From positions 1,520,729 through 1,584,728 of the forward strand of contig NC_011978.1 of NCBI RefSeq assembly GCF_000018945.1: 64,000 bases of DNA, in the 5' to 3' direction. The stretch is from Thermotoga neapolitana DSM 4359 (GTDB lineage Bacteria; Thermotogota; Thermotogae; Thermotogales; Thermotogaceae). The position numbers were made by a program, and so were the translations under genes. Under the pieces are notes generated by a model that worked only from the letters and a program-made list of their open reading frames with translations, searched no databases and was not told the origin of the DNA. This document shows, one piece after another, positions 44,098 to 51,819 of this stretch (position 1 is the first letter of the stretch; each line of letters starts with the position of its first letter).

Positions 44098-44120
<23 letters not shown>

Positions 44121-47100
44121 CGATAAAATCCGCCCCGATGAAAAGCACATCTGGATCTGTATGAGCATAGAGACCACGAGAATACATCGGATAAACCCGT
44201 GCCGGAAGAAGATGAAACACCCCCTCTGCAGTCGCCCTCCAGACGTAGTCAAAGCTATTACCGTAAAGATATCGGGCAAAGAGCGCCACCCTGTCCGTTC
44301 GAATCTCCCTTCCAGAGTACCATGCGTTCCATGAAGAGTACCAGCTGTACGAGAACTTGTTTTCCTCGATCCCTTTTTCTCTGTAGTTCGAGAGCACCTG
44401 CGCACAGGACGGGATGAAATCCTCCACTATGAGATAATTTCCATCTCCTTTAACCCTCACCACCGTTTTGATTATGTCTCCCAATTCTATCTTCACGTCT
44501 CCAACATCGAAGACCACCTCGAAAACTCTGTTCCGAAGAGTTTTTGAAGATCCACTGAAGCGTATGTTCTCCGCAACCAGCTTCTTCCCATCCCAGAAGA
44601 ATACCCTTCTGGCAACAAACGGAAGATCCACGAACTCTCCGTTCCTGTACCAGTACGTTTTGTTTTCTCCCCTCAGCAAGATTTCGTCCATCGTGCAGGA
44701 CAGTCCCGTAACGTCTTCGGGAACGGGTATCTTTTCATCACCGACCAGCACGAATCCCTTCATGAGAAAGACGGGACCACTTCTCATGAAACCTGCGTCC
44801 GTTACATCCAGATACCTGGTGATGGTGTTCTTTTCCGTATCGTAGATGAGCGCTTCGTTTCTGAAAAAAACAAGAATCAAGCCGTTGAACGTTTCGATCC
44901 TGAAGAACGTGTAAGTCTCTCCCTTTATTTTCACTTCTGCACCGTTTATCTCGAGGGGAACTCCTCTGTATTCGATTGTCTTCTTCCAGTACTTGTACGG
45001 CAGGATGTAGAGCTCTTCAGTTTGCTCTTTCTCGACAGGGTGTATCGAGCGCGGTACGTATCCTCTCCCGATCGGCACGAAGGCATCCACAATCATTTTA
45101 TTCTCCTCTATGAGCAGTTCGTACCTTTTGTAGAATTCTCTTTTTATCTCCAAACCTTCGCTCACAGCCTCTTTCGGAACTTCGATGTAAACTACCTCCA
45201 CTTCCACAATGCCTTTTCCAGAGACGGTCAGTGAACCGGGAACGAGGGACCTTTCTTCACCTGGCTTCAGTTCGAAGGTGTTTTCGGAGTTGATGACTTT
45301 CAGTGTGGTTGAAGCGTACTCCGGCATCGCCTCAAGGAGCGCCAAAATAACAAAGGACGTGTCTTTTGTGGAAGTCCAGAAAGCGCTGTCTTTTTTCAAG
45401 AGAAGGTAATTTGTCACTTTTCTTTCCAGTTCTGGAAATTCTTTCCACTTCGCAAGAGCCCTGAGGAAGACGCTGTTGAGCTGGATCTCACTGATGAGGG
45501 GATTATTAGAATATACATTCAGATAGGCCTTCTGCTCGTCCTGGACGACGTAGTTCATCAGCTGTTTCAGAGCCTCTTTTGAACTCAAACTCAGAAACAC
45601 CAGATCCGCTTCGCTTTCTGGCTTGAACGGCTCGTGATTCACTCCGTACAGATCGAGAACATACGATCCGTAGGCCGATGGATGTTTTCTGAGATACTCT
45701 ATTCCTCTCTGCAGAACGCTTTCTGCGACATCGTATCCTGCCTTCATGGTAAAGTACAGCCCTTCCATCACGTAGCAGGTCATGAAGTCATCGGATTCGC
45801 CGAATCTGAACCATCCCCAGCCACCATCGTTGTGCTGGTAAGAGTAGAGTTTGAACAGCCCCCTCTGGATGATCTCTTCCAGGTTTTCCACCTCTATTCC
45901 TGCGCTTGCTGCAACCACAGCCGGGAAGAACCGGCTCATGGTCTGTTCGACACAACCGTACGGGAAGTCTATCAACCTTTTCAGGCTATCCTCGACAAGC
46001 GGAACGATGCTGTCCAGAAACCTTATCCTCGATGAGATGAACTGCCCTGGAATTTCCAGCGTTTCTTTCCCGTCCAAGAGCATGATGCGGTAGAATTCCC
46101 TTTCGAAGGCGAATCTTTCAACGGGCAGTCTCATGGAGACCGCATCGTTCAGATCTTCTCCGACCGCAACGAACTTCACGAAACTTCCTTCAGAAGCGGA
46201 GACAGCCTTCACTGTCCAGGTCTCTGTGTGTGAGGAGTTCGCCTCCATCAAAAAGTGCCTTGAAGAACTCCCCTCGAGGAGTTCTATGTTCTCGGGAAGT
46301 TCCACCGTGAGTTGAACCGGAAGCGTCTTTGAAGTCCTGTTGAAAACGGTTGCGGATATTTTTATCACATCACTCTCCCTCAGAAAAGATGGAAGATGTG
46401 GCATCAGATAGAACTTTTTGGAAACGACCATTTCGCTTTCTGTCTGGGAAAATCGATCCTTTGAGAAACCGTAGGCCGTTGCCCTGAAAGAAGTGATGCT
46501 GTCTGGTACCTTGAAGCTCACCCTTGCCGTTCCGTTGTGAAGCTTCAGTGATGGGATCCAGAGGGCCGTGTCGGGGAAGTACTCCCTGACGTTCAACTTG
46601 GATGGAAGGGCGTTCTGCTTGAAATCGGCAAAGGTCTTCTCCTCCGGGAGGGAAGCGAGTTTGTTTCGGAACGAATCCCTTGAAACGTAGAGCCTCCAGT
46701 AATGCGGAAATCCTCCTCTTGTCCGGGGATAGTTCATGTATGGATAGAGGAAGTTTTCGAGCACCGGTGGTTCTGCTCCAACCATGGCGTATATCGCTTC
46801 ATCAACGAGGAAAAGACAGACTCTGTCCACATTCGATTCGATCGTGATCTGTGCCATTTCTCCAGGTTCATACTGATCTTTGTCGAACAGAATCTTCATG
46901 GTGGTGAAATTCGTGTCGAGCAGAACGTTCAGCCTTTCCAGCTTGTAGATACGCCCATTATCGTCGAGTCCAACGAAGCTGATGAATAGATTCTTCTCGG
47001 GGATATCTTTCGGTATTCTGACACGCAGGTTGACAGATCCGGTGAAGGAGACGGGAATAGTGTCGTAAACCCTGTTTGAGACGATTCCCAGAACTCCCAT

Positions 47101-48702
47101 CACCTTACCAGGTGCAAGGATCTGAACCGAAAGTTCATCCCCGGGTTTCACTGTGTTCGTTGCCGGATTGATTACGAACTCGCTGCTTGTTCCTGCACCG
47201 CAGTAAGCGTACACGTAGAAGTGAGTTTTCGCTTTTCCAAAGGAGAGTTCTATTCTGTAACTTTTTGGCTCTTTTGGGGTGAAAGTGACGATCGCCTCAC
47301 CGTTTTCCACGGCCACCGTGCTCGTTGAATCCTCAGAAGAGGTGGTGAGCAGTCCATTTAAAGGATTTCCTGAAAGATCCGTCACTTTCACCTTCACCCT
47401 CACCTGCTTGCCCGGTGAAGTGGAAACGTACCGATCCAGAGGAGATATCAGAACGTTGTCGGCGTACACCTTCACAGACCTTGTTTCCTCGATCTGACGC
47501 TGGCTCTCATCCGTCACAATCACCTCCAGCCGGTAAGAGCCCTGAAACCCTTCTTCTGTTTTCACACCGAGCCTGAGGTTTCCCTCTTCGTCCGTGAAGT
47601 CCGTTCCCCTGTAAACTAGATAGCCGCTTCCTTCCTCTGGAAAGGCCCGAACGTAGTAGGCAACCTGCGCCTTCGCGACGGGCTGGCCGTTGAAGTACTT
47701 CACCCTGACAAGGTAGTTCACAACTTCGCCAGATATGTACACGTCTTTATCCGTTTCGATTTCGACTTTGTACTCCGGTTTCCTGTATTCTTCCACCAGA
47801 AAATATTCGTAGTAGCGTCTTCCTCCGTGATCGACATTCACCTTGTAGAGTCCGACCGAGGCTGTGTCTGGAAGTTTCATGGAACCGCTGAATCCACCGA
47901 GCTCGTCGGTTTCGAACTCCGATCTGTAAACCTCGTTTTTCTTTGTGTCGAAGATGGAAACGGTGACTTTCGTCTTCTCAAAGGCTTTGTAGAGACCCTC
48001 TTCAAAAGAGAAGATCTGACCTCTGAAGTGGACCGTGTCGGACGGTTTGTAGATCGGCCTGTCTGTGACAAAGAAAAGCTTTTCTCTTTCAAGCCCTCCA
48101 CCTGAAAAGTACACCCCTCCAAAAAATCGAGAGTCCCCGTACCTGATGTAGAACGTGTCGAAGTGTTTCGTGATAGAAACGACCCCGTCTTTGCCGGTGA
48201 AAACTCTGTCGATCAGTTTTGAATCTTCAAAGAGGAGGACCTCCGCTCCTTCTACAAAATCACCGTCTGAGTCGAATACGTGGAGCCTCAGCTTTTCGCT
48301 GTCGGAAAAGTAGATCGCTTCCAGATCGGTGACGATGAACAGGCTCCTGTCAATCACCCTTCTGAAAACCGTCCCCTCGTTGGAAACCAGAGTCGCAAAG
48401 TAAAATCCCCTGTCTTTGAGCGGAAATGAGAATTCTTTCCACTCTTCTGAGGAGAACTTTTTACTGTAGATAGGACGTGTTATCTCTAACAGTGAAAAGT
48501 TAAAGCTTTCTGGATCAAAAACTGCTTTCAAAAAGTCTTCTTCACTTATCTTCCACACGTTCAGGGTGATATTCTCCAGATCTGAGATCACAAAGGAGAG
48601 CCCCTCATCTGGGTGCAGAACAGGATATCTAGAGAAATAGGCGTATCCTCCAAAAAGACTGAAGCTGATCAGAAGAAAAACCAAGAAAATCAATCTCTTC
48701 AT
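44098..48702 (-). CDS. Bacterial alpha-2-macroglobulin (thioester protease trap)
   Basis: A protein of about 1,534 residues with signal peptide MKRLIFLVFLLISFSLFGGY. It contains repeated MG beta-sandwich domains, including RPIYKPSDTVHFRGQIFSF near residue 215, which is the hallmark MG motif. The thioester site is YGCVEQTMSRFFP near residue 915 (CxEQ), followed by the helical TED domain (NDGGWGWFRFG). Such proteins trap invading proteases by a bait cleavage that exposes the thioester. ATG 48702 fits the GAGGGGG site better than ATG 48708. Unlike the E. coli tandem with penicillin-binding protein 1C, it is paired here with HExxH and DUF1175 genes. It faces away from the sulfur operon across 200 bp. 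Confidence 0.92.
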
Positions 48703-48814
48703 ACCCATCCCCCTCTTTCACGTTTTTAAAATGTTAATACTATGATACCACTTAACGAAAGAAAATCAGAAGATCAATCTTTAAACGTGATCATTTGGTT
48801 AATTTACCATATCG

Positions 48815-48856
48815 TAATATTATTCAACGTCTATGTAACATTAGAATATTATTATT
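48815..48856. promoter_or_regulatory. Imperfect inverted repeat upstream of the sulfur operon
   Basis: TAATATTATTC at 48815-48825 and AGAATATTATTA from 48843 are inverted copies with small offsets around a centre near 48835. It is the best operator candidate in the 48709-48907 gap and could be the binding site of the HTH-TusA regulator encoded at 51265. Confidence 0.45.
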
Positions 48857-48866
48857 TTCACGAGGA

Positions 48867-48907: not shown

Positions 48908-49147
48908 ATGGCGAAGTACCAGGTCACCAAGACTTTGGATGTGAGAGGAGAGGTTTGTCCAGTGCCTGATGTTGAAACCAAAAGGGCTCTGCAGAACATG
49001 AAGCCAGGAGAAATCCTTGAAGTGTGGATCGACTATCCAATGTCGAAAGAAAGAATCCCGGAAACTGTCAAAAAACTTGGCCACGAAGTCCTGGAAATCG
49101 AAGAAGTGGGTCCGAGCGAATGGAAGATCTACATCAAAGTGAAATAA
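48908..49147 (+). CDS. tusA: TusA/SirA-family sulfur carrier
   Basis: A 79-residue cytosolic sulfur-transfer protein. DVRGEVCPVPDVETKRAL near residues 11-28 gives the persulfide-carrying cysteine (Cys17) in the conserved CPxP motif, followed by PGEILEVWIDYP. I recall the homologue TM0983 as an NMR structure. ATG 48908 follows GGGGAGGTGTGCAGT; the frame's earlier GTG lies inside that site. It heads a five-gene operon with a YeeE/TsuA transporter and DsrE, DsrF and DsrH, so it probably accepts sulfane sulfur from imported thiosulfate or from a rhodanese and hands it to the DsrEFH complex or to thiolation enzymes. Confidence 0.94.
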   Translation: MAKYQVTKTLDVRGEVCPVPDVETKRALQNMKPGEILEVWIDYPMSKERIPETVKKLGHEVLEIEEVGPSEWKIYIKVK

Positions 49148-49162
49148 GGAGGTGCAGAAGTC

Positions 49163-50161
49163 ATGGTCTGGACCGGTCTACTAATCGGAGTTCTGTTCGG
49201 TGTAATCCTTCAGCGTGGCAGGATCTGCTTTAACTCCGCTTTCAGAGACGTTCTGATCTTCAAGGACAATTACTTGATGAGGCTCGCTGCGCTGACACTC
49301 GGTCTCGAATCCATCACGCTCTTGATCTTCGCTCAGGCCGGCATCATAACTCTCAACCCCAAACCCCTCAACTGGATTGGAAACATCATTGGTGGATTCA
49401 TCTTCGGAATGGGAATGGTGCTCGCTGGTGGATGTGCTTCGGGAGTGACTTACAGAACCGGCGAAGGAATGACAACAGCGTGGTTCGCAGCTCTGGCCTA
49501 CGCTCTGACGGCCCACGCTACAAAGAAGGGATTGTTCTCGGGATGGATCAAGTGGCTGAGCAACTACACGGTGACAGTTTCGAACACAAATCCCGTTTAC
49601 GCACCAAAGACAGGGCCAACTATCGCAACGGTGCTCGGTATCAGTCCATGGATCGCCTCAATTATCTTCCTTGCGCTCATGCTCTGGTACGCCTTCGGAG
49701 TGAAAAACAAGTCCCAGAGGCCTTCCAAATTGAACTGGATCGCTGCTTCTGTTCTCATAGCGATACTCGCACCCATAGCCTGGTGGGCAAGTGCGAGTAC
49801 AGGAAGAAACTATGGTCTTGGTATCACAGGGGGCTGGATAAATCTGGTTTCTGTTTACGCAAACAACGCCTCTCTGAACTGGGAAGGTGCTGAGATTCTC
49901 GGAATAATAATAGGAGCTGCCATATCTGCCATTGCAGGAAAAGAGTTCAAACTGAGAATGCCAAAGAACCCCAAAACCTACGCTCAGGTTCTTCTGGGAG
50001 GATTTCTCATGGGATTCGGTGCGGTAACAGCTGGAGGATGTAATATAGGTCATTTCCTCACCGGTGTTCCGACACTGGCCATCTCATCGATAGTAGCATC
50101 TATCTTTTTCATTCTCGGAAACTGGACAATGGCCTGGTTCCTGTTTGGAAGACAGAAATGA
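49163..50161 (+). CDS. YeeE/YedE (TsuA-type) thiosulfate or sulfur-compound transporter
   Basis: A 332-residue inner-membrane protein with about nine to ten helices. The cysteine motifs of the TsuA/YeeE family are all present: QRGRICFNSAFRD near residue 18, LAGGCASGVTYRTGEG near 92 and TAGGCNIGHFLTGVP near 294. In the characterised YeeE homologue these cysteines line the thiosulfate path. The gene lies between tusA and dsrE, matching the known yeeE-tusA (yeeD) pairing in other bacteria. Thermotoga reduces thiosulfate and sulfur, so uptake of thiosulfate for a cytosolic sulfur relay is the likely role. Start ATG 49163 follows AAGGAGGTGCAGAAGTC. Confidence 0.9.
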   Translation: MVWTGLLIGVLFGVILQRGRICFNSAFRDVLIFKDNYLMRLAALTLGLESITLLIFAQAGIITLNPKPLNWIGNIIGGFIFGMGMVLAGGCASGVTYRTGEGMTTAWFAALAYALTAHATKKGLFSGWIKWLSNYTVTVSNTNPVYAPKTGPTIATVLGISPWIASIIFLALMLWYAFGVKNKSQRPSKLNWIAASVLIAILAPIAWWASASTGRNYGLGITGGWINLVSVYANNASLNWEGAEILGIIIGAAISAIAGKEFKLRMPKNPKTYAQVLLGGFLMGFGAVTAGGCNIGHFLTGVPTLAISSIVASIFFILGNWTMAWFLFGRQK

Positions 50162-50183
50162 AACTTCAAGAGGAGGAAAAACT

Positions 50184-50540
50184 ATGAAGATAGGAATACA
50201 GGTGATGGTTCCACCCTATACATATGAAGATCTGGATACCGCTATAAAGATCGCTGAAGCCGCAATGGAAAAAGGTCATGAAGTAACACTCTTTCTCTTC
50301 GCGGATTCCGTCATTTGTACTAACAAGAACATAAAGCCAATCAAAATCGACAGAAACATTCCACAGAAACTTGTAGAACTGATGCAAAAAGGAAACTTCG
50401 AGGTTCACATATGTGGAATATGTATGGACTACAGAGGGATAACCACAGACATGATAATAGAGGGTTCGAAACCGAGCGGTCTTCCAGAACTCGCAAACCT
50501 GATTGCCACCTGCGACAGATTCATAAATCTGATGGCTTGA
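50184..50540 (+). CDS. dsrE: DsrE/TusD-like sulfurtransferase subunit
   Basis: A 118-residue protein of the DsrE family. The active cysteine region VHICGICMDYRGIT near residues 72-85 matches the TusD/DsrE sulfur-accepting cysteine. The Rossmann-like start KIGIQVMVPPYTYEDLDTA and the preceding helix fit the fold. An AAGAGGAGGAAAA site fixes ATG 50184; the longer frame overlaps the transporter. Together with the next two genes it would form a DsrEFH (TusBCD-like) heterohexamer that relays persulfide sulfur from TusA. The operon lacks DsrC and Dsr reductase genes, so use in tRNA thiolation or sulfur trafficking is more likely than sulfite reduction. Confidence 0.88.
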   Translation: MKIGIQVMVPPYTYEDLDTAIKIAEAAMEKGHEVTLFLFADSVICTNKNIKPIKIDRNIPQKLVELMQKGNFEVHICGICMDYRGITTDMIIEGSKPSGLPELANLIATCDRFINLMA

Positions 50541-50549
50541 GGTGAGATC

Positions 50550-50903
50550 ATGAAGAAACTTCTGTTTGTAGCCTATCAATCACCGGTTGGAAGTGTCTGG
50601 GTCAACGAAGCATTCAGAACTGCCTTTGGAATGTACGGAGAGGATCTGGAACCAAATGTTCTCCTAATTGAAGAGGCTTCTGTTGCGTTATCCAAAAATA
50701 CGAAGCCGGAGATGCTGGGACTACTTCCTCTCTCGATCTGTCACAAATACATCAAAAGATACGGTACCAAAGTTTACGCAGTCAAACAGCATCTCGAGAA
50801 GTACAGGGTAAAAGAACTGGACGAAAATTTCGGGGCAGAAGTGATCGACGAAGCGAATCTCCCAGAATTCTTACACAGTTTCGACTACGTTATATTCATG
50901 TGA
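50550..50903 (+). CDS. dsrF: DsrF/TusC-like sulfur-relay subunit
   Basis: A 117-residue protein of the DsrE/DsrF-like fold, beginning KKLLFVAYQSPVGSVWVNEAFRTAFG, the family's usual first strand and helix. A single cysteine lies in LLPLSICHKYIKRYG near residue 71. It starts nine bases after the dsrE stop with a TGAGGTGA site and is followed 11 bases on by the dsrH start. In TusBCD the C subunit is structural and lacks a strictly conserved active cysteine, which fits. It probably forms the middle layer of the complex with the flanking gene products. Confidence 0.85.
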   Translation: MKKLLFVAYQSPVGSVWVNEAFRTAFGMYGEDLEPNVLLIEEASVALSKNTKPEMLGLLPLSICHKYIKRYGTKVYAVKQHLEKYRVKELDENFGAEVIDEANLPEFLHSFDYVIFM

Positions 50904-50914
50904 GGTGATAGGAG

Positions 50915-51178
50915 ATGGCACTCGTACTCGTTAAGTACGGAACGGATCACCCAGTGGAAAAACTCAAAATAAGATCTGCAAAGGCAGAAGATAAGATAGT
51001 TCTCATACAAAACGGTGTCTTCTGGGCTCTGGAAGAACTCGAAACACCAGCAAAGGTCTACGCAATCAAGGACGATTTTCTTGCGAGAGGATATTCCGAA
51101 GAGGATTCAAAAGTTCCACTGATCACTTACAGTGAATTCATAGATCTTCTGGAGGGTGAAGAGAAATTCATCGGCTGA
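50915..51178 (+). CDS. dsrH: DsrH/TusB-like sulfur-relay subunit
   Basis: An 87-residue protein with the DsrH fold signature DKIVLIQNGVFWALEEL near residues 26-42 and the C-terminal YSEFIDLLEG. I recall the T. maritima homologue TM0979 as a solved DsrH structure. It contains no cysteine at all, so it cannot carry persulfide as some DsrH proteins are proposed to do; here it must be structural within DsrEFH. It starts after GAGGTGATAGGAG, and the operon appears to end with the terminator at 51225. Confidence 0.88.
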   Translation: MALVLVKYGTDHPVEKLKIRSAKAEDKIVLIQNGVFWALEELETPAKVYAIKDDFLARGYSEEDSKVPLITYSEFIDLLEGEEKFIG

Positions 51179-51224
51179 TGAGATTTAGATGTGATAAAAT
51201 AAGAATACGCTAAGTCAACAGCAG

Positions 51225-51247
51225 GCCGCGGCTCGTCCGCGGCTTTT
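51225..51247 (+). terminator. Terminator or attenuator between sulfur operon and HTH-TusA regulator
   Basis: GCCGCGG (51225-51231), loop CTCGT, CCGCGGC (51237-51243), TTTT. It lies 47 bases after dsrH and 18 before the regulator's ATG, so it can end the operon or attenuate read-through into the regulator gene. A GATAAAAT string at 51193-51200 might be a -10 box for a separate transcript. Confidence 0.85.
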
Positions 51248-51264
51248 GCAGAAGGTGGTAACCC

Positions 51265-51819
51265 ATGGGACAGCGCGGAAGCGTTTTGACACTCTTTAAA
51301 ACCTTATCGAATCAGACACGACTCGACATCCTGATGCTTTTGAGAGACAGTTGTCTCACCGCTTCAGAAGTGGCGGAGAAGCTGAAGATCAATCCCTCAA
51401 CCGCTTACAGGTATTTGAACCAGATGGTTAAAGCGGGGATCCTCAAAGTCGTAAAGACACCCGAGGGTGACAGGTACGATTTTTCTTCTGTTCAGGTGTT
51501 CAGGATGCTCGAAGCAGCGGTGGAATTGCTCCACGAGAACGAAAAAGAAAAGAAAATTTCCAGTATCATCTCAGTAGAAGAGTCGCCTGGGTCGAAGAAA
51601 TTTCTCGATATGCGGGGACAAATATGTCCCGTTCCAGAGATCACGACCAGAAAAGAACTGGAAAAACTCCAGCCTGGAGAAACCCTGATCGTGATGTGCG
51701 ACTATCCACTCTCGGGAGAGAGGATCACAAGTTTCTCTCTGAGGGAAGGCTATGAAGTGGCCACTGAACAGATCGGACCCGTAACCAAGATCTACATAAA
51801 GAAACCGCAATCTCTTTAA
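51265..51819 (+). CDS. Fusion of an ArsR-like HTH regulator with a TusA sulfur-carrier domain
   Basis: A 184-residue two-domain protein. Residues 1-85 form a winged helix of the ArsR type (LFKTLSNQTRLDILMLL; recognition region ASEVAEKLKINPSTAYRYLNQ). A charged linker leads to residues 112-184, a complete TusA domain with DMRGQICPVPEITTRKEL and Cys121 in CPVP, then PGETLIVMCDYP. It follows the tusA-tsuA-dsrEFH operon. The obvious model is a regulator whose DNA binding depends on persulfidation of, or sulfur transfer to, its own TusA domain. Both domains are intact and in one frame. That regulatory logic is inferred; the domain fusion is directly visible. Confidence 0.9.
   Translation: MGQRGSVLTLFKTLSNQTRLDILMLLRDSCLTASEVAEKLKINPSTAYRYLNQMVKAGILKVVKTPEGDRYDFSSVQVFRMLEAAVELLHENEKEKKISSIISVEESPGSKKFLDMRGQICPVPEITTRKELEKLQPGETLIVMCDYPLSGERITSFSLREGYEVATEQIGPVTKIYIKKPQSL

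Follow-up and report, generated by a model that had tools for sequence, protein, structure and literature searches.

The window analysed here, a 64,000-nucleotide stretch of the Thermotoga neapolitana DSM 4359 genome, contains a sulfur-relay operon on the forward strand (tusA-tsuA-dsrE-dsrF-dsrH, 48908–51178) and, after a gap of 86 bp, a sixth open reading frame (ORF) in which a helix-turn-helix (HTH) domain is joined to a TusA sulfur-carrier domain (Table 1). An earlier note on this DNA had proposed the same six genes, and both their order and their coordinates hold against Pfam and NCBIfam profiles, with the match of dsrF being weak. The genes correspond to TM0983–TM0978 of Thermotoga maritima, where TM0978, the counterpart of the fusion, is annotated as a "hypothetical protein" and nothing more (PMC4331810). 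The fusion is considered here as a candidate regulator of the operon.

A winged helix joined to a TusA domain

Both halves of the fusion are recognized by family profiles. Residues 14–63 match ArsR-type HTH profiles (PF01022, 44.1 bits; PF12840, 44.6 bits; both above the curated cut-offs), and residues 113–180 match the TusA profile PF01206 (64.2 bits, cut-off 28.6), with Cys121 lying within a CPVP motif. An AlphaFold2 model based on an alignment of 26 relatives contains two confident domains (mean predicted local distance difference test score, 84.6) separated by a disordered linker at about residues 94–110. The N-terminal domain comprises helices, a wing, and helix alpha5 at residues 76–93, and the fusion therefore has the winged HTH and C-terminal dimerization helix of the ArsR/SmtB family as well as the fold and CPxP cysteine of the TusA family. 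In Foldseek comparisons, the first domain is closest to HlyU, CzrA, AntR, and BigR; the second is closest to TsuB and TusA, including the TsuB domain of the TsuA–TsuB complex, and also matches PDB 1jdq. Profiles, conservation, and structure prediction thus bear out the earlier assignment of a single-gene HTH-TusA fusion with Cys121 in CPVP. A chance joining of ORFs, a frameshift, or an assembly artefact was considered and ruled out, as about 38 of the 103 Thermotogota genomes compared carry an ORF with the same pair of domains (a count that takes in G087, where the fusion is cut by a contig end, and G031, where it is broken by a frame change).

In an alignment of 35 fusions (that of the window and 34 others), Cys121 is the only invariant cysteine (35/35), and the D(Y)PLSxERI motif is kept. 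The fused domain shares its fold, the CPxP persulfide cysteine, and the DYPxSxERI motif with the TusA/TsuB carriers (TM0983, PDB 1jdq; E. coli TusA; S. thermophila TsuA–TsuB, PDB 8k1r), but differs from them in its position C-terminal to a DNA-binding domain and in its much faster divergence, for example 47% versus 91% and 42% versus 91% when compared with the free TusA of the same genomes. It is because the fused domain diverges so fast that the invariance of Cys121 stands out. The whole T. neapolitana genome encodes two TusA domains, one in the operon tusA and one in the fusion. A metal sensor was considered and ruled out, given that the HTH has neither a metal site nor a conserved cysteine pair and that profile NF033788 scores 34.7 bits against a cut-off of 55.

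The fusion is closely tied to sulfur-transfer genes. A co-occurrence search, which the earlier note had suggested, found tsuA in 41 of the 103 Thermotogota genomes: in 36 of the 38 fusion-bearing genomes versus 5 of the other 65 (Fisher p = 6e-20, uncorrected for phylogeny), the two fusion genomes lacking tsuA being G039 and G045. Within Thermotoga, four genomes carry both genes and three carry neither. At all loci read, the fusion adjoins the operon or its remnants, except in G046 and G079, where the two lie on separate contigs of fragmented assemblies. The layouts include a same-strand gene directly downstream, a convergent neighbor, a convergent gene with one or two genes between, and the fusion as the first gene of the operon. 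In G028, where operon and fusion have decayed together, tusA survives in degraded form, alongside a remnant (L069) that passes from tsuA into the TusA domain of the fusion.

In a TusA tree, 34 fused domains group in a single clade with strong support, and those of loci L067 and L068 fall among free TusAs. The second, independent origin hinted at by this placement was dropped, as a single origin is not rejected by an approximately unbiased test (p = 0.50) and all fusions group together in the HTH tree. A single HTH-pattern scan across 84,980 genomes returned no close relatives outside Thermotogota, and a scan of 399 Pseudomonadota returned no fusions, both searches being limited and not proof of absence; there were no plasmid matches.

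A candidate operator and a Rex site upstream of tusA

Unbiased expectation-maximization (EM) motif discovery in 34 non-redundant upstream regions yielded two motifs. Motif 2 is a dyad, TTTACCAAATCGTAAC, with a log-likelihood of 217 compared to 50–57 for shuffled sequences and the same orientation at all of its loci. Of the 31 loci at which the recognition helix of the fusion reads STxxR(H/Y)L, 30 have the dyad upstream of tusA. It is absent both where the recognition helix is changed (SLVYK, SEIQK, and ASLYK at L050, L067, and L068) and from three operons that have no fusion (L070–L072). Even with two mismatches allowed, the pattern matches the T. neapolitana genome only once, at tusA; because the dyad is unique in the genome, a local regulator is called for. 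Phylum-wide, 18 of 61 exact matches are the tusA site, and the remainder resemble chance occurrences (93 matches for a reversed-pattern control). Genomic linkage and the association with the dyad both point to the fusion as a local regulator with a cognate operator in the operon promoter, and the sequence comparisons make it very probable that the fusion binds motif 2.

The earlier note had proposed two regions in which to measure DNA binding by the fusion. The dyad lies in the first, at 48.7–48.9 kb, and co-occurs with the fusion; no dyad was found in the second, at 51.18–51.26 kb. Autoregulation through the latter region was rejected, as there is no dyad upstream of the fusion gene elsewhere either, except for one weak site at L062. 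A wider regulon was ruled out by the lack of any further motif 2 site in the T. neapolitana genome. At L050, which lacks the standard dyad and has a different recognition helix, a perfect 7-bp inverted repeat (TTTTACG-N9-CGTAAAA, L050:253–275) is found upstream of tusA; this single case may represent an altered or shifted operator. In G039, tsuA has been lost and an in-frame deletion has produced a single ORF that combines an N-terminal portion of TusA with a C-terminal portion of DsrE (L057:9186–9617), and the dyad and the fusion are still present.

Alignment of 26 loci from five families at motif 2 showed that a -10 hexamer starts 32 nt past the motif, with a mean of 4.15 of 6 consensus bases versus 3.15 for the best rotation; none of 2000 random rotations matched the observed signal. 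The position of a -35 hexamer was no better than background in the aligned loci. The sigma70 consensus of T. maritima, -35 included, is generally strongly conserved (PMC3636130). With a transcription start predicted near 48862, the aligned -10 geometry therefore places the dyad upstream of the core contacts of the polymerase, spanning about -60 to -45 with its center near -52. Judged by geometry, the promoter has the fixed-spacing upstream site and missing -35 that characterize activation.

Motif 1, TGTGAAAAAAATCTCA, is the strongest motif and occurs in Thermotogota operons with and without the fusion. Its copy in the window, TTGAGATTTTTTTCACAA, has the half-sites and spacing of the crystallized T. 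maritima Rex operator of TM0201 (PMC8836258), a site that is bound experimentally, and the T. neapolitana genome encodes two Rex-type proteins. The suggestion in the earlier note that the relay could report its state without a separate redox sensor is contradicted by this near-perfect operator for an NADH-responsive repressor in the same promoter. Rex is a different and global protein compared to the fusion, and represents an extra input. The simplest reading of the sequence is that the promoter combines an activator site with a repressor site.

Table 1. Features of the tusA promoter, the sulfur-relay operon, and the fusion gene (positions in the window).
Feature	Position	Strand	Remarks
Candidate HTH-TusA operator, TTTACCATATCGTAAT, dyad TTAC-N6-GTAA	48803..48818	+	EM motif; genome-unique; tracks the fusion
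Inferred -10 hexamer, TATTAT	48850..48855	+	31 nt between dyad end and hexamer; no -35
Rex (NADH-responsive repressor) operator, TTGAGA-N6-TCACAA	48866..48883	-	Spans about +5 to +22 relative to the inferred start; motif 1
tusA, free sulfur carrier	48908..49147	+	ATG start at 48908; PF01206, 1.9e-25; ortholog of TM0983, PDB 1jdq
tsuA (yeeE), thiosulfate transporter	49163..50161	+	NF052577 TsuA, 571 bits (cut-off 400)
dsrE-like sulfurtransferase subunit	50184..50540	+	PF02635
dsrF/tusC-like subunit	50550..50903	+	TIGR03010, 1.4e-5, 25 bits (weak, below cut-off); flanked by dsrE and dsrH in all relatives
dsrH/tusB-like subunit	50915..51178	+	TM0979 ortholog; TIGR03011, 49.6 bits (cut-off 49.2)
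GC hairpin with short T run	51221..51249	+	Between dsrH and fusion; -18.3 kcal/mol, z -3.6
HTH-TusA fusion, 184 amino acids	51265..51819	+	TM0978/CTN_1600 ortholog; winged helix 7-93, linker 94-110, TusA 111-180, Cys121

Thiosulfate induction and the surroundings of the operon

The operon of the window and that of genome G091, presumably T. maritima MSB8, have a sequence identity of 100% or close to it. For this reason, induction data from T. maritima apply directly to the operon in the window. In T. maritima, the yeeE (TM0982) transcript is up 42.6-fold with thiosulfate and rises slightly with elemental sulfur, with no regulator named (PMC9431562). The similarity extends well beyond the operon: together with the 19 kb that follow (L097), the window is 99.2% identical to G091, a different species, over 83.3 kb, with 44001–83272 essentially 100% identical and another region of the genome just 78%. 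The borders of the G091-like stretch lie beyond the 83.3 kb compared. Sharing of more than 80 kb implies either a very recent interspecies transfer or a contaminated or mixed assembly.

Divergent from tusA, a reverse-strand ORF of 1536 amino acids (44098–48708) shares its intergenic region with the operon promoter; its product looks like a bacterial alpha-2-macroglobulin-type protein. The hairpin that precedes the fusion gene is possibly a weak terminator or attenuator; it has only four T residues and, as a result, was not listed by the terminator scan.

In many other Thermotogota, the cluster also includes a gene for a dihydrolipoyl dehydrogenase and, frequently, one for a lipoyl protein resembling GcvH (L056:4548–6280, L054:6082–7422, L061:4127–5845, L050:3237–4595, L070:6331–8051, L072:308–2101), which suggests an NADH–lipoyl–DsrEFH route for the reduction of sulfane sulfur in those clusters. 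Neither gene is next to the operon in the Thermotoga window. Transporters of the SLAC1/TDT and TauE/SafE families, which resemble sulfite exporters, lie near the cluster in two genomes (f10, g32), one of them Marinitoga lauensis (L048:2603–3610 and L057:11149–11916), as would be expected if thiosulfate splits into sulfane sulfur and sulfite.

A model for activation by sulfane sulfur

The comparative data favor, with moderate confidence, a model in which the fusion is a local thiosulfate/sulfane-sulfur activator of the tusA-tsuA-dsrEFH operon, with a persulfide on Cys121 as the signal and Rex as a gate. The thiosulfate-uptake and sulfur-relay operon would be its single target. The ArsR-type winged helix, probably dimeric, would bind the dyad just upstream of the expected -35 contact of the polymerase, and the bound fusion would recruit RNA polymerase to a promoter with a -10 but no -35 hexamer, while the TusA domain would report the sulfur status of the relay. 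Thiosulfate would enter via TsuA, sulfane sulfur would be passed along TusA, and Cys121 of the fusion would become persulfidated; this would switch the protein to its activating state and result in positive feedback on uptake. Rex would add a second condition by repressing transcription when NADH is scarce. With these two inputs, the operon would be on when sulfur is available for reduction and NADH has to be disposed of at the same time. Activation rather than repression is considered probable, and loading of Cys121 as the signal fairly probable. The most specific form of the model, a self-reporting relay in which a diverged TusA on an ArsR winged helix is loaded with the sulfane sulfur of the relay and activates directly, with Rex as the NADH gate, is proposed tentatively.

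Several points weigh against the model. Most characterized ArsR proteins are repressors, and a dyad near -52 could also serve a repressor. The correlation between recognition helix and operator rests on clades rather than on many independent events, the fusion locus L064 has no clear motif 2 site, and the site at L065 is weak. The fused TusA could be a docking module for TsuA or DsrEFH that carries no persulfide, and a resolving thiol, hence a dithiol mechanism, is possible beside Cys121.

These points lead to different alternatives. Repression from the same operator, with the apo protein blocking the promoter and the Cys121 persulfide releasing it, would agree with SqrR, BigR, SoxR, and sHdrR, which are repressors like nearly all characterized sulfane-sulfur-responsive ArsR proteins, and derepression would fit the induction by thiosulfate as well. 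It is nevertheless unlikely, as the dyad lies upstream of the core promoter at a fixed spacing to a -10 without a -35, there would probably be little need to repress a promoter that lacks a -35, and the position of a repressor is already taken by Rex.

Alternatively, the TusA domain may sense by docking, either on TsuA in the manner of TsuB or on DsrEFH/TusA, so that thiosulfate flux sequesters or releases the regulator and no sulfur is carried for signaling. The TsuB domain among the closest solved structures of the fused domain would support such an interaction, as would the DYPLSxERI face that it has kept in common with the operon TusA. The retention of Cys121 in a fast-evolving domain argues instead for thiol chemistry and makes docking without transfer quite unlikely; docking combined with transfer is still compatible.

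A sensor of the SqrR/BigR type, in which a sulfide or polysulfide bridge links Cys121 to Cys30 or to a linker cysteine, could make use of the at least one extra cysteine that precedes Cys121 in 34 of the 35 fusions (Cys30 in 19 of them, otherwise in the linker). The position of this second cysteine, however, varies from lineage to lineage, and L053 has none. The HTH of the 35 fusions contains no conserved dithiol pair and no second cysteine beside Cys30, whereas SqrR-type proteins keep two conserved cysteines inside the winged-helix domain, and the BigR profile NF040642 scores 16 bits against a cut-off of 155; such a mechanism is distinctly unlikely. That the dyad serves another local factor, with the fusion regulating elsewhere or being a sulfurtransferase with a vestigial DNA-binding part, draws on the comparative nature of the case for the fusion as its binder, but is highly improbable given that operons without a fusion or with a changed recognition helix lack the dyad, that a site occurring once per genome requires a local regulator, and that the fusion is the sole regulator consistently found beside the operon.

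The proposed activator resembles two known classes of regulators. Like SqrR, BigR/YgaV, SoxR, sHdrR, and HlyU, the fusion contains a winged helix of the ArsR type, is encoded together with genes for thiosulfate and sulfur trafficking, and is presumed to respond to a persulfide signal. SqrR, BigR, SoxR, sHdrR, and HlyU sense via cysteines of the winged helix, whereas the conserved thiol of the fusion sits in the fused sulfur-carrier domain; the promoter geometry suggestive of activation is a further difference from these ArsR sensors. Rhodanese-fused regulators (ArsR-rhodanese, PMC3817168; ChrB) likewise combine an HTH with a sulfurtransferase domain, but that domain is a rhodanese and not TusA. 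Sulfane-sulfur-responsive ArsR proteins and rhodanese-fused regulators are thus already known; no report of a TusA-fused regulator was found in the searchable literature, where most subscription journals are not covered.

Thiosulfate reduction is a hallmark of the Thermotogales, and the analysis names a candidate switch for the 42.6-fold induction of the uptake operon that consists of one protein, one 16-bp site, and one cysteine. If the model is true, the fusion would be an activator of the ArsR fold whose ligand is not diffusible, but covalently transferred sulfur handed from protein to protein. More generally, should the signal prove to be loading of the carrier domain, this would show how a trafficking pathway can monitor its own flux by passing sulfur from one protein to another.

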